Assembly: GCA_946536925.1 (NCBI GenBank)
Contig: CAMNFC010000002.1
Span: 1-64,000, forward strand
DNA from: an uncultured Selenomonadales bacterium
GTDB taxonomy: Bacteria > Bacillota > Negativicutes > Selenomonadales > Selenomonadaceae
Length of the DNA stretch: 64,000 bases
Direction of reading: 5' to 3'
Numbering within the stretch: the stretch's first letter is position 1; every line of letters begins with the position of its first letter. The position numbers and the translations under genes are program-made. The notes under the pieces are model-generated. The model did no database searches and had not been told where the DNA came from. It saw only the letters and a program-made list of their open reading frames with translations. Below, piece after piece: positions 50,620 to 56,614 of this stretch.

Positions 50620-51096
50620 TTGGAAATTTTAAGTCAGCGGGACAAAGAAATCGTCAAAGCGTTGCAAGAAGATTTTCCGCTGTGCGAGGAGCCGTACAAA
50701 ATTTTGGCCGCGCGAGCCGGAATGAGCGAAGAAGAATTTTTGCAGCGCGTCAAGGAGTTGGTCGACGAAAAAAAAATTCGCAAGATGGGAGCGGTGCTCC
50801 GTCATCGCGAAGTAGGTTTCAATGCAAATGCTTTGTGCGCCTGGCACGTCCCGCCCGAAAAAATCGACGAGATCGCGCAGGTGATGATCTCTCACGCGGC
50901 GGTTTCTCACTGCTACGACAGGACGCCCGCGCCGAACTGGAATTATAATCTTTATACGATGATTCACGCCAAAACCCGCGACGAGTGCGAAAAAATTATC
51001 GGCGAACTTTCAAACCTCACGGGCGTCACAAATTTTAAAATCCTTTACACGAAAAAAGAATGGAAGAAAACCGGAATGAAATATTTTTGCGAATGA
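50620..51096 (+). CDS. ahbB: Siroheme decarboxylase subunit AhbB-like
   Basis: IVKALQEDFPLCEEPYKILA; RKMGAVLRHREVGFNANALCAWHVP; SHCYDRTPAPNWNYNLYTMIH. Confidence 0.9.
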   Translation: MEILSQRDKEIVKALQEDFPLCEEPYKILAARAGMSEEEFLQRVKELVDEKKIRKMGAVLRHREVGFNANALCAWHVPPEKIDEIAQVMISHAAVSHCYDRTPAPNWNYNLYTMIHAKTRDECEKIIGELSNLTGVTNFKILYTKKEWKKTGMKYFCE

Positions 51097-51146
51097 CGGC
51101 AGGAAATTTTTTCCTGCTTAATTTTTTTTGCGCGGGAGGCGTCTCC

Positions 51147-53516
51147 ATGAAGAAAAAACTTTTCCAAATTTTATCCGAGGCCGAAAACGAGGAAGAACTC
51201 AAAAATTTTTTCGCGAAATTTTTCAAGCTCAAACTCTCCACGAAAAATTTTATCGACCTGTACACGCCGCAAATTCTTTTCGAGTTCAAATTTGATTCAA
51301 ATCTTTCAAATCCGCAAGTCCTGGCAAAAATCGTCGCGCAAACTCTTTATTACGTTCGCAGATTAAAATTCGGCTCAGATTTCCGACCCGTAAGCCAAAA
51401 TATTTGCGTCGTCACAAAAAATTCTGCCGCGCTCTTCCCGACCGAAGCTTTTGCCGAATTTTACAACGACGAAAATTACGATTGGGATTTGGCTCCGTCG
51501 TCGCCGTGCAAAAAATTAATCGCCGCGCTGACAAATTTTGACGCCGTAAAAAATTCTCGCGTCTTCGATTTTTCCGTCGTCCAAGAAGAAATTTCTTTTG
51601 CCACGCTCCTCAACAACACGCTCGACAAAAAATCTTTCGCCGCGAAAAAAATTTCCGCAAAAAATTTCGAGCAGATCTTTTTCTACTGGAAAAAACTTTT
51701 CGGGGCGGCCGTCGCCAACGGCAGAAAACCTTCCGAATATTTTATCACCGACATTGAGCAGGGAAAATCCGAGGATTTGCGCCACAGCGTCCTTTTCCGC
51801 ATGGCCGGCGGCGAGCTCGTCGAAAAATCTATCACGCCGAAAAAATATCACGACTTCTGGGATTTTTACGAGAAAATTCAAAACGTCCAAGACATCATCG
51901 CCATTCGCCAGAGGATGGACAGGATGACCGAAGAAAATTTGCGGCGGCGCACGGGTGAATTTTACACGCCGATTCCTTTTGCCGATAAAGCCTTCGATTA
52001 TTTGAAACGCACGCTCGGCCAATGGTGGACGCAAAAAAATTTCCGCCTCTGGGATATGGCCGCGGGCACCGGCAACATCGAATATAATTTCCCGCCCGAA
52101 GTCCTCAAACATTGCTACATTTCCACGCTGCTCAAGGACGACGCCGATTATTGCAAAAAAATTTTCCCCGAAGCCGCCGCCGTCTTCCAATTCGACTTCC
52201 TCAACGACGACGAAAAAAATTTGCCCAAAAATCTCCGCGCCGATTTGAACGACCCCGACGTCCGCTGGATTATTTTTATCAACCCGCCATACGCCACCGC
52301 CAACAACTACGAACGCGACAAAACCAACATAAAAAAAGACGGCGTGGCAGACACCGCGATTAGAAAACTTATGACGGCCGAAGATTTGGGTCAAGCCAGC
52401 CAAGAATTATTTTCCCAGTTCATTTATCGAATCAGCAAAGATTTTTCCAATCGTCAGGCGTGGCTCGGAATGTTTTCAAAGGTTAAATATATCAACGCGA
52501 ACGCCGATCAAAAATTTCGCGACAAAATTTTTTCTTATAAGTTTGAGCGCGGCTTTGTCTTCAACTCGAAAAATTTTCACGGCTGCAAAGCTCAATTCCC
52601 CGTCGGATTTTTGATTTGGAATCTCGCGGAAAAAATTCCTCTCGAAGCTCAAGAAATTTCTTTGGACGTCTTCAACTCGGCCGCAGAAAAAGTTGCCGAA
52701 AAAATTTTTCACGCCGCGAATCAAAAAGAAACTTTAAACAAATGGATTGATCGCCCGCGCAGGACAAAAAAATTTCCGCCGATGTCGAGCGGAATAAATA
52801 TTAATCGCGGCAAAGTTCATTGCGACACAGTTTCAGAAAATTTTTTGGCTGATTTAATGAGTTTGGGAAATGATTTTCTTCACCAAAATTATACAGCGAT
52901 TTTGTCTGGCGTTTATTCGGACGGACACGACATTTCAATCACGCCGGAAAATTTCGAGCAGGCAATGGTGGTGCACATGGTGCGGCGTTTGCCCAAGGCG
53001 ACGTGGCTCAACGACCGCGATCAGTTCATGCAGCCGACGAAAAAATTATCGGCGGAATTTATTTCGGACGCGGTGATTTGGTCATTGTTCGCGCCGTCCA
53101 ACGCCACGGTTTCTTTGCGCAACGTGGAATATGAGGGCGAAATTTATCGCATACCGAATAATTTTTTCCCGTTCACTTTGTCGGAGATAAAAACTTGGCC
53201 GTGCACATCGCCCGAAATCCGAATGCAAATCGCGCGGGCGACCGAAGACCGATTCGCGGCTCTGTGGATAAAAAATCACGCGTTGAGCGCGGAGGCCTCG
53301 GAAATTTTTTCGGCGGCACGAGAGATCTACAAAAAATTTTTCGCGGAGATTGAGCGATTGGACTTGCACCGTTGGAAGATTGAAGACTGGGACGCGGGCT
53401 GGTATCAAATTCGCATGAGCTTGGACGCAAAATTGAGCTTGAAAAAACTTTCGGCGAAATTGGAACCGCAAATTTATGAGCTGGGATTTTTGCGCGACGA
53501 AGTAAAATATTTCTAA
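51147..53516 (+). CDS. Solitary N6-adenine DNA methyltransferase, possible Type IIG-like restriction-modification enzyme
   Basis: Motif I DMAAGTGNIEY, motif IV INPPYAT, TGEFYTP; N-terminal FIDLYTPQILFEFKFD resembling D...ExK. Confidence 0.75.
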   Translation: MKKKLFQILSEAENEEELKNFFAKFFKLKLSTKNFIDLYTPQILFEFKFDSNLSNPQVLAKIVAQTLYYVRRLKFGSDFRPVSQNICVVTKNSAALFPTEAFAEFYNDENYDWDLAPSSPCKKLIAALTNFDAVKNSRVFDFSVVQEEISFATLLNNTLDKKSFAAKKISAKNFEQIFFYWKKLFGAAVANGRKPSEYFITDIEQGKSEDLRHSVLFRMAGGELVEKSITPKKYHDFWDFYEKIQNVQDIIAIRQRMDRMTEENLRRRTGEFYTPIPFADKAFDYLKRTLGQWWTQKNFRLWDMAAGTGNIEYNFPPEVLKHCYISTLLKDDADYCKKIFPEAAAVFQFDFLNDDEKNLPKNLRADLNDPDVRWIIFINPPYATANNYERDKTNIKKDGVADTAIRKLMTAEDLGQASQELFSQFIYRISKDFSNRQAWLGMFSKVKYINANADQKFRDKIFSYKFERGFVFNSKNFHGCKAQFPVGFLIWNLAEKIPLEAQEISLDVFNSAAEKVAEKIFHAANQKETLNKWIDRPRRTKKFPPMSSGININRGKVHCDTVSENFLADLMSLGNDFLHQNYTAILSGVYSDGHDISITPENFEQAMVVHMVRRLPKATWLNDRDQFMQPTKKLSAEFISDAVIWSLFAPSNATVSLRNVEYEGEIYRIPNNFFPFTLSEIKTWPCTSPEIRMQIARATEDRFAALWIKNHALSAEASEIFSAAREIYKKFFAEIERLDLHRWKIEDWDAGWYQIRMSLDAKLSLKKLSAKLEPQIYELGFLRDEVKYF

Positions 53517-53551: not shown

Positions 53552-56500
53552 TTATTCCTTGATGAGTTCCTGCAAAGCCTTGTAAAGTTGTTCGGGGTCG
53601 GCGGGCTTGGTCAAGTGCGCGTTCATTCCGGCCTTGAGCGAGCGTTGGACGTCCTCATCGAAGGCGTTGGCTGTCATTGCGATAATCGGGACGGTTTTTG
53701 CGTCGGGGTGATTGAGCTTGCGAATTTCTTCCGTGGCTTTGAGGCCGTCCATCACCGGCATGCGGATATCCATGAGCACGGCGTCATAAAATCCTGGCGG
53801 CGAGGCAGCGAATTTTTCCACGGCGATTTTCCCGTTCTCCGCGTGATCGGAAATCATTCCGCGCATTTCCAAAATCATCATCATAATCTCAGCGTTGACG
53901 GGCATATCCTCGACGACGAGAATTTTTCTGCCTTCCAGCTCGACAAATTTTTTTTCGGGGACGGTCTGCCGCTTGCGATTGAAAGCCTGTTGGAATTCGT
54001 AAAGGACGTTGGCCGAAGAGAGCGGCTTGGACATGAAGGTATCGACGCCGGCCTTTGTCGCGCGCTCCTCGACCTCGTACCAGTCGTAAGCCGTCAAGAC
54101 GATGACAGCGGTCTCCTCGCCGAGAATGGAACGAATTTTCCCCGCGAGTTCGATTCCGTCCATTTCTGGCATCAACCAGTCGACGATTATCAAGTTGTAA
54201 TCTTCGCGGCGACCGTGGCGCAAATTTATCAGCTCCAAAGCTTCCTTGCCGCCGGCGCACGTCTCGGATTTTATGCCGACTTCTTCCAGCACGGATTTGG
54301 CATGTTCGCGGGCGAGCGGTTCGTCGTCGACGATGAGCACGGAAAAATCTTGCGGGCGCATTTCGTGGGATTCGTCGCCTTCGGTTCGCGCGGAATCTTT
54401 CAGCGGGACGTTCACGACAAAAGTTGTGCCGACACCTTTTTCCGAATCGACGCTGATTGAGCCGTTCATCATCTCGACGATATTTTTTGTTATCGCCAAG
54501 CCCAAACCGGAGCCGCCGTATTTTGAAGTGGTCGTGTCGTCTTCCTGGCTGAAGGGCTCAAAAATTCTCGGCAGATAATCGCGGCTCATGCCTATTCCCG
54601 TGTCTTTTATCGTGAAGCGGAAATTTGATTGGCCGTCGAATTGCGCGGTGCACTCGATAATCAGCGTGACTTTTCCGCCCGCGTCCGTGAACTTGACGGC
54701 GTTGCCCAAAATATTTATCAGCACCTGCTCAAGCTTGGTGTCGTCGCCGATGTAATATTTTCCGATGTCGCCTTTGAGCTCGCACTCGTACGTTAAATTT
54801 TTTTCGTTGCATTGGCCGTCGACGAGGCTGTTAATCTGATAAATAAACGACGTGAAAGAAAATTCTTCGTTGCGGAAAGACATGCGGCCGCTCTCAATCC
54901 TGCTCATGTCCAAGATGTCGTTGATGATTGACAGGAGGTAGCGCGCGCTCGTCCCGATTTGTTCCAGGTAACTTTTTAGCGTCGGCGTCAAATCTTTGTC
55001 GTGCAGGGCGATGTTGTCCAGGCCGATGATAGCGTTCATTGGCGTGCGGATTTCGTGGCTCATTCGCGAGAGGAAAGCTGTTTTGGCGACGTTGGCCTGC
55101 TTTGCGACGTTGAGCGCGTCTTTCAATCTTGCGTTCTGTTGAATTTGTTTTTGCTGAATCTCGGTCGTGTCGCTTTTGAGCAAAATAAAAAATTCCGCGC
55201 GGGGATCAATCGTGTAGAAGTCGAAGCGTTTATAAAAAGTTTCGCCGCCGATGTTGCAGGCGATGTTGACGACGTACGGCTCGGAAATTTTGAGCTTGTC
55301 TTTAATCGTCGAGAGGCTCAAAGCTTCCGCCAAATTTTTTTTCAACGCGTCGTCACCTTCCAGCACGGGGAAAACTTGATTCTTAAAATATTCGTCGTAA
55401 TTTCCTTCGCGGGTTATCGGGAAGATTGAACCTTTGCCGATGAGCGAAGCGTCGCCGACGACCACGCTGTATTTGTCGTTGACGAGGTAGGCGACCATAT
55501 CGAATTGCCGCGCCAAAATTTTATCGAGCAGAGCACCTTCGACTTTTTCTTTGCCGGCTTCCTGCTCGGAAATAAAAATTATAATTTCGTTCGAGATTGG
55601 GTGGCGCGTGAAGACCGCACGATAATTCACGTAACAATAATGGCCGTCACGTCGACGAGAGAAAAGATACATTGAAAGTTGAGTTTCGCCGCGCAGAAAA
55701 CGGGCTTTGATATTTTCCGCGTCGAAATTTTCCAGGAAAGCTTCGCGCTCCTCGTCAATCGGATAATTTTTTGAACGCAGATTGATCAGCTCGGAATAGG
55801 GGCGAATGACCGAATCGGTGCCGAACAAATCTTTGCCTTGGACGTCCTCGACTTTGTTGCGCGTGACGTTTGCTCTGAACATGGAAAGCGTCCGCTCGTT
55901 TGCGCGATAAAAATTGTCGGCGATGGACATGTACGTGCGTTGAAGTCGTTGCGCATAAACTTTGGCGGCCGTCACGTCGAAAAAATTGCAACAGACGTAA
56001 TGCTCGTTGAAATCGTCGATGAACGTGAAGCTGACGAGGCACCAAACAATTTCACCGCTCCCCGTCGTCTGCCGAATCGTCAAATCTTTCGTGCTCTCTT
56101 CGGACACGCGGCGGCGCAGCATTCTTTTTACGGCAAGGCGGTCGTCTGCGTGCGTGAAGGCGATGATTCCGTTTGCGTTCAAATTTTTTTGGGCGTCCTC
56201 CACGGAGCAATTCATCAGCCGCGCAAAACTTTTCGACACGAAGACGGCTTCAAACTTCCCGTAATCTTTTTCGCGCAAAAGAATTATCGCGCCCTCCATT
56301 TTGCGAATCGAACGGAGAAAATGATTGCGCGCGGAAAGTTTTTCGTGCTCAGAAATTTTCATCAACGTGAAGCCGACGTACGGCGCGGGGAAATTTTCAA
56401 TCGGTGCGGACAAAAATTTTTCTCCGTCGACGATTTGGCTGACGAGGGAGCCGACGAAATTTTTTTTGCCCAAGAGGCCGGCGAACGGCTCATTACCGAA

Positions 56501-56614
56501 GACAATACGATAATCGCGCGCGGAACCGTCCGCATTCAAAACGGGCGTGCAGATAAAAATTGCCAGTGGCAGTTCTTCAAACTTCGTCGTATCGAACGGC
56601 AATGAACTGTTCAT
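53552..56614 (-). CDS. Hybrid sensor histidine kinase with PAS-like input, HisKA/HATPase and two receiver domains
   Basis: LSRMSHEIRTPMNAIIGL, GSGLGLAITKNIVEMM, two receiver segments (VLIVDDEPLAREH..., ILVVEDMPVNAEI...). Confidence 0.95.
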   Translation of the reverse strand: MNSSLPFDTTKFEELPLAIFICTPVLNADGSARDYRIVFGNEPFAGLLGKKNFVGSLVSQIVDGEKFLSAPIENFPAPYVGFTLMKISEHEKLSARNHFLRSIRKMEGAIILLREKDYGKFEAVFVSKSFARLMNCSVEDAQKNLNANGIIAFTHADDRLAVKRMLRRRVSEESTKDLTIRQTTGSGEIVWCLVSFTFIDDFNEHYVCCNFFDVTAAKVYAQRLQRTYMSIADNFYRANERTLSMFRANVTRNKVEDVQGKDLFGTDSVIRPYSELINLRSKNYPIDEEREAFLENFDAENIKARFLRGETQLSMYLFSRRRDGHYCYVNYRAVFTRHPISNEIIIFISEQEAGKEKVEGALLDKILARQFDMVAYLVNDKYSVVVGDASLIGKGSIFPITREGNYDEYFKNQVFPVLEGDDALKKNLAEALSLSTIKDKLKISEPYVVNIACNIGGETFYKRFDFYTIDPRAEFFILLKSDTTEIQQKQIQQNARLKDALNVAKQANVAKTAFLSRMSHEIRTPMNAIIGLDNIALHDKDLTPTLKSYLEQIGTSARYLLSIINDILDMSRIESGRMSFRNEEFSFTSFIYQINSLVDGQCNEKNLTYECELKGDIGKYYIGDDTKLEQVLINILGNAVKFTDAGGKVTLIIECTAQFDGQSNFRFTIKDTGIGMSRDYLPRIFEPFSQEDDTTTSKYGGSGLGLAITKNIVEMMNGSISVDSEKGVGTTFVVNVPLKDSARTEGDESHEMRPQDFSVLIVDDEPLAREHAKSVLEEVGIKSETCAGGKEALELINLRHGRREDYNLIIVDWLMPEMDGIELAGKIRSILGEETAVIVLTAYDWYEVEERATKAGVDTFMSKPLSSANVLYEFQQAFNRKRQTVPEKKFVELEGRKILVVEDMPVNAEIMMMILEMRGMISDHAENGKIAVEKFAASPPGFYDAVLMDIRMPVMDGLKATEEIRKLNHPDAKTVPIIAMTANAFDEDVQRSLKAGMNAHLTKPADPEQLYKALQELIKE

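Follow-up and report, generated by a model that had tools for sequence, protein, structure and literature searches.

The window analysed here is a stretch of 64 000 nucleotides from a 1.87-Mb draft genome (76% complete, 123 contigs). Its positions 51147–53516 on the forward strand encode a protein of 789 amino acids, P0001, which ends at a TAA stop and contains zero internal stops. The translation, full-length relatives and an AlphaFold model of the whole protein (mean pLDDT 91.6) delimit the gene as one encoding a putative single-chain nuclease-methyltransferase-recognition protein. The same open frame has an alternative start at 51060 that would give 818 amino acids, which we discarded because it overlaps the preceding gene and because a good ribosome-binding site precedes 51147. 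The start at 51147 is favoured, since the likely ribosome-binding site GGGAGG (51134–51139, +; read directly from the sequence) lies 7 nt 5′ of this ATG, and relatives of P0001 align from the matching residue or close to it. The left neighbour, which marks the insertion site (50620–51096, +), carries siroheme decarboxylase NirDL-like HTH and AsnC-like domains in Pfam, as does an ahbA-like gene 5′ of it, consistent with a previous reading made from the sequence alone (hereafter the sequence-only reading) that placed P0001 right after ahbB. The same reading had noted that separate R or S genes are absent, and indeed the next gene downstream (53552–56614, −) encodes a hybrid histidine kinase according to a domain search. 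All the motifs that it quoted for the 789-aa protein, FIDLYTPQILFEFKFD, AKIVAQTLYYVRRLKFG, DMAAGTGNIEY and INPPYAT, are present in the translation.

Residues 1–130 (51147–51536, +) form a putative PD-(D/E)xK-type nuclease domain, as judged from residue conservation, from a model of residues 1–168 and from the relative L175, where this part is a gene of its own. We aligned the N-terminal region with 90 diverse relatives, whose identity in the nuclease domain goes down to about 15–20%. E15, D37, E46 and Y69 are found in 90 of 90 relatives, while K48 and Q65 are each found in 89, both being missing from one and the same protein (L065, which is the same gene as L011). Conservation on this scale argues that the motifs of P0001 are not due to chance. 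It defines a putative catalytic motif D37-x8-E46-x-K48 (51255–51290, +) and, together with the model, a Q65xxxY69 motif on the following helix (51339–51353, +). The spacing between D37 and E46 varies in the alignment (9, 13–15 or 18–19 residues), as expected for a loop joining two strands. The model of residues 1–168 (pLDDT 93.9) predicts, in order, a helix with E15, a strand with D37, a strand with E46xK48, a helix with Q65xxxY69, and further strands. P0001 displays the active-site features of PD-(D/E)xK enzymes, namely D...ExK, an accessory Glu (E15) and the QxxxY helix that certain subgroups possess.

Taken alone, the PDB fold search would make for a weak nuclease assignment, as the best match of the isolated N-terminal domain was non-significant (E 0.43), with PD-(D/E)xK nucleases being frequent among the top weak matches. 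The first 41 of these include the Eco15I N-terminal domain, BpuSI, DrdV, MGME1 and RecU, which we take to be PD-(D/E)xK-type enzymes. A fold search of the domain against a viral library returned two significant matches, one to an uncharacterised protein of 196 aa and the other to an annotated N-6 DNA methylase. At the profile level, the N-terminal region matched HSDR_N_2 nucleases at E 0.037; this value was equalled by one of 12 column shuffles, and the match was hence not counted as evidence. For these reasons the nuclease call relies mainly on residue conservation and on the behaviour of the domain as a module. On that footing the candidate D...ExK nuclease of the sequence-only reading stands, with D37-x8-E46-x-K48 and Q65xxxY69 kept in at least 89 of the 90 relatives.

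Two natural variants of this domain deserve mention. The gene of one congener (L011:1501–3906, the same gene as L065) encodes N in place of K48 and K in place of Q65, with the methyltransferase motifs intact; it is likely a nuclease-dead variant and a potential control. In Vibrio phage D69 (L054:4839–5387) and two sister phages, a 182-aa protein matches only the N-terminal nuclease domain (residues 33–139, E 1e-3), and is possibly a free-standing nuclease of the P0001-family type.

One rival explanation is that P0001 is an orphan adenine methyltransferase with a role in regulation or maintenance, the N-terminal domain of which has ceased to be, or never was, a working nuclease. Relatives in Brachyspira are nuclease-less methyltransferases encoded by solitary genes with no visible nuclease partner, and these would fit such a role, as would the L011/L065 protein that lacks K48 and Q65 and the weak PDB match of the N-terminus alone. 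We nevertheless regard this explanation as unlikely: the putative nuclease residues of P0001 are all intact and their segment shows strong purifying selection, with a dN/dS of only 0.14–0.18 in comparisons with its two nearest relatives, the D, E, K, Q and Y positions are retained in 89 of 90 relatives, and the patchy presence and shifting position of the gene within the genus (see below) speak against a housekeeping role.

The nuclease domain is followed by a mostly helical connector (residues 131–262; 51537–51932, +), delineated from the secondary structure of the model and less conserved within the genus than any other part of the protein. Residues 263–505 (51933–52661, +) constitute a predicted gamma-class N6-adenine methyltransferase domain, recognised by its conserved motifs X, I, III and IV and by Foldseek matches to adenine methyltransferases. 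Motif X reads GEFYTP in P0001. Motif I, for AdoMet binding (WDMAAGTGNIE; 52050–52082, +), contains G307 and N310, and motif III (FQFDFLND; 52185–52208, +) contains F347, Q348, D350, L352 and N353, all invariant in 90 sequences; in motif IV (NPPY; 52281–52292, +) NPP is invariant and the fourth position is Y or F. T274 is also invariant in this full-length set, so that the methyltransferase motifs first noticed in the middle of the protein are borne out across the family. The order X (GEFYTP), I, III, IV (NPPY), with a C-terminal domain after it, is the layout of a gamma-class N6-adenine methyltransferase. The remaining ∼285 residues (506–789; 52662–53513, +) comprise a predicted target-recognition and C-terminal helical region. 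The earlier suggestion that this long C-terminus serves target recognition is consistent with its occurrence as a separate gene in split relatives (L165, L191, L200, L206 and L207) and with its evolution as a mosaic block.

A Foldseek search with the model of whole P0001 gave DrdV (7lvv) as the best PDB match, with an E-value of 2e-9 over 762 columns, followed by LlaBIII (ranks 2 and 3), a Type I M subunit, CamA, M.BseCI and MmeI (rank 7). TM-scores did not exceed 0.28 of the query (0.26 for DrdV and 0.24 for MmeI), and such low values imply that the global domain arrangement of the P0001 model differs from that of DrdV or MmeI. Sequence searches against solved structures, whether they started from P0001 by itself or from profiles, found nothing significant, with matches in the methyltransferase region only (E 0.01–0.1).

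Relatives of P0001 are naturally split, and the splits fall at the expected module boundaries. For example, in L165, L200 and L206 (also L191 and L207) the RM gene stops at about residue 500 and the recognition part is a gene of its own, while L175 has a distinct open frame of 169 aa for the nuclease (R + MS); L157 has an additional nuclease-like open frame. The states seen across the family are thus fused, RM + S, R + MS, RMS with a second M, and M-only, and they mirror the arrangements tabulated for Type IIG enzymes, which are R-M-S, R-M + S, and R-M-S and M (PMC3874165 Table 4; PMC4752239, on new Type IIG-like families). These split and fused forms reveal where functional modules can be separated. 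At two Selenomonadaceae loci (L067:926–4946 and L070:5099–9233) the full-length gene is overlapped by a nuclease-less paralogue made up of a methyltransferase and a recognition domain.

Among 154 loci there is no recurrent partner gene; no neighbour cluster is common to more than seven of them, and those that are shared represent related phages or shared local backgrounds. Because no neighbouring gene family recurs in these loci, the enzyme appears to act alone. For lack of conserved partner genes in the same 154 loci, BREX, DISARM and other multi-gene methylation-based defence systems were rejected. Four Selenomonadaceae loci (L057, L058, L069 and L093) have upstream genes in common. These resemble genes for a helix-turn-helix regulator and an ImmA/IrrE-like metallopeptidase and may be the sign of a mobile island common to these loci; the copy in the window is without them.

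In its layout P0001 resembles Type IIG enzymes, since motifs, model and splits together point to a nuclease, a gamma-class methyltransferase and a recognition domain on a single chain (or as RM + S), and the neighbours and the 154 loci show no reliance on a separate R or S gene; in Type IIG enzymes an additional methyltransferase is optional. P0001 also differs from each of the closest known systems. DrdV, the best structural match, likewise has an N-terminal nuclease, an adenine methyltransferase and C-terminal recognition in one chain, although at 12% identity and a TM-score of 0.26 of the query it represents another sequence family with another relative domain placement, and its chain is longer, with 1012 residues in the structure compared to 789 in P0001. 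MmeI also has the order nuclease-methyltransferase-recognition on one chain and acts as a stand-alone enzyme (PMC3874165, PMC4081073). Membership of its family (Type IIL) was rejected because none of the Pfam domains MmeI_N, MmeI_hel, MmeI_Mtase, MmeI_TRD and MmeI_C matches P0001 or 48 relatives, unlike two further proteins encoded by this genome, which match all five and served as a positive control. In a profile–profile comparison of the P0001 family and MmeI-like proteins, no more than 62 columns were aligned. The two control proteins, both true MmeI-like single-chain enzymes, are encoded on other contigs of this genome, G000 (C13, L261:2050–4878; C60, L262:133–2904), and a large protein encoded on a further contig (C34, L272) has an HSDR_N_2 (Type I R-like) domain.

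Eco57I has the same functional layout and a companion methyltransferase (PMC3874165 Table 4), as have some members of the P0001 family (L067 and L070); assignment to the Eco57I family was rejected, with the Eco57I methylase domain PF07669 matching one of 49 members weakly (E 2e-4) and not matching P0001. The Type ISP enzyme LlaBIII carries a nuclease, a gamma methyltransferase and a recognition domain on one chain, but has about 1500 residues as opposed to 789. Type ISP membership was rejected because P0001 has no translocase, the nuclease and methyltransferase being separated by ∼130 mostly helical residues with no Pfam domain. BcgI-like Type IIB systems have the RM plus separate S layout seen in L165, L200, L206 and other split relatives, whereas the S-like proteins of the P0001 family, at ∼300 residues, would by their length hold one recognition domain rather than two. 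By sequence the P0001 family stands on its own, unmodelled in the main annotation libraries and set apart from MmeI, Eco57I and Type ISP; its functional kind is a known one. A more far-reaching proposal, which we consider doubtful though worth stating, is that the family is a phylum-wide superfamily of single-chain restriction-modification enzymes assembled independently, with its own divergent PD-(D/E)xK (E-D-ExK-QxxxY) and methyltransferase motifs, and not derived from MmeI/Eco57I stock. If true, it would provide a natural series for studying fusion and splitting of Type II systems.

Within the genus the gene is under purifying selection, with a dN/dS of 0.18–0.28 between congeners; in most congener pairs the nuclease-motif segment is the most constrained part or close to it. 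The nearest relative (L002) shares 79% amino acid identity with P0001, and nucleotide identity between the two is distributed unevenly: 97% in codons 1–60, 83–91% in codons 61–360, 67–77% in codons 361–660, 79–84% in codons 661–780, and 96% at the very end. In another pair, L003 and L007, the recognition region is 85% identical while residues 1–500 are only 66% identical. Replacement of the recognition block is what specificity switching would look like.

At least a fragment of the gene is carried by 20 of the 37 genomes searched in the genus, and P0001 is one of 13 full-length proteins. The gene changes chromosomal sites. In three congeners (genomes G031, G065 and G015; loci L232, L242 and L244) the histidine-kinase gene directly follows ahbB and the family gene is absent from the site; a relative occupies the same ahbB site in G073, and G015 has its own family copy beside a different gene. 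Because ahbB and the histidine-kinase gene are directly joined in G031, G065 and G015, these comparisons indicate that the gene reached the ahbB site recently. The reading as an ancestral housekeeping gene was rejected on account of the empty site in congeners. No insertion-sequence ends or flanking repeats are present near the two ends of the gene, and a transposon-borne insertion was rejected on this ground.

Internally deleted or frameshifted copies occur in congeners. For example, G020 has a 5′ remnant (L028:6731–7018) near a full-length copy, and in G030 both gene ends are kept with the interior deleted (L041:9274–9714). Broken copies of this kind, and the draft state of the source assembly, could suggest that P0001 itself is a pseudogene or an assembly artefact. 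We consider this extremely improbable, given its intact frame, motifs and ribosome-binding site, the purifying selection described above and the 12 other full-length relatives in the genus.

The mobility of the gene could also accommodate a methylation-guarded defence that dispenses with classical cleavage of infecting DNA and acts, for example, by nicking or by an attack on the cell's own DNA (abortive infection, plasmid addiction), as could the occurrence of the gene on small plasmids and viral contigs, for which addiction would be of use. Classical restriction-modification requires fewer assumptions, the layout matches that of cleaving DrdV- and MmeI-type enzymes, and no toxin-like extra domain is seen in P0001, which makes this defence mode very unlikely in our judgement. 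Rather, the conserved residues, the DrdV/LlaBIII/MmeI-like model, the module splits, the mosaic block, the mobility and the absence of a recurrent partner agree with the sequence-only reading, which had proposed a possible single-chain restriction-modification enzyme with no partner genes. P0001 is very probably a stand-alone, Type IIG-like enzyme that reads DNA with its C-terminal part, methylates adenine, and cuts unmethylated DNA with its N-terminal part.

We postulate that the C-terminal domain would read a short, probably asymmetric DNA sequence, within which the middle domain would methylate an adenine, and that the N-terminal PD-(D/E)xK-type domain would cut unmethylated DNA at a fixed distance. 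One recognition domain would thereby serve both methylation and cutting, so that the cell's own DNA would be marked and unmarked foreign DNA cut. As each molecule has a single nuclease site, double-strand cutting would probably follow the meeting of two enzyme molecules (by analogy with PMC3874165). Self-protection could occur by methylation of a lone strand, as in MmeI; with no second methyltransferase gene in the vicinity, this is the simplest assumption.

The family is large and scattered. At least 563 loci were confirmed in a species-level genome collection, and the 80 loci listed include Selenomonadaceae, Ruminococcus, Bacteroidota, Proteobacteria, Spirochaetes, Fibrobacter, Verrucomicrobia and others; among the matches listed, the closest named relatives of P0001 are rumen and gut Selenomonadaceae, including Quinella. 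Relatives are also found on 113 viral contigs and in 18 plasmid records, such as the 9–10-kb plasmids of Acinetobacter and Fluviibacter. P0001 has zero matches at E ≤ 1 in Pfam, NCBIfam and PADLOC, a PHROGs search gave nothing useful, and generic methyltransferase models match weakly in only a few of 49 diverse members. A literature search, with REBASE outside its scope, found no report naming the family. The family is mostly annotated as ‘hypothetical protein’, and nearly all plasmid-borne relatives bear this label; because of such labels and the lack of matches in Pfam, NCBIfam and PADLOC, the P0001 family is overlooked when restriction systems and defence genes are counted. If active, it would supply new DNA specificities, each from one compact gene. 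Lastly, the Helicobacter pylori plasmid pUM157 contains an unannotated family member spread over three reading frames (L052:12479–15429); this copy may be broken or phase-variable.
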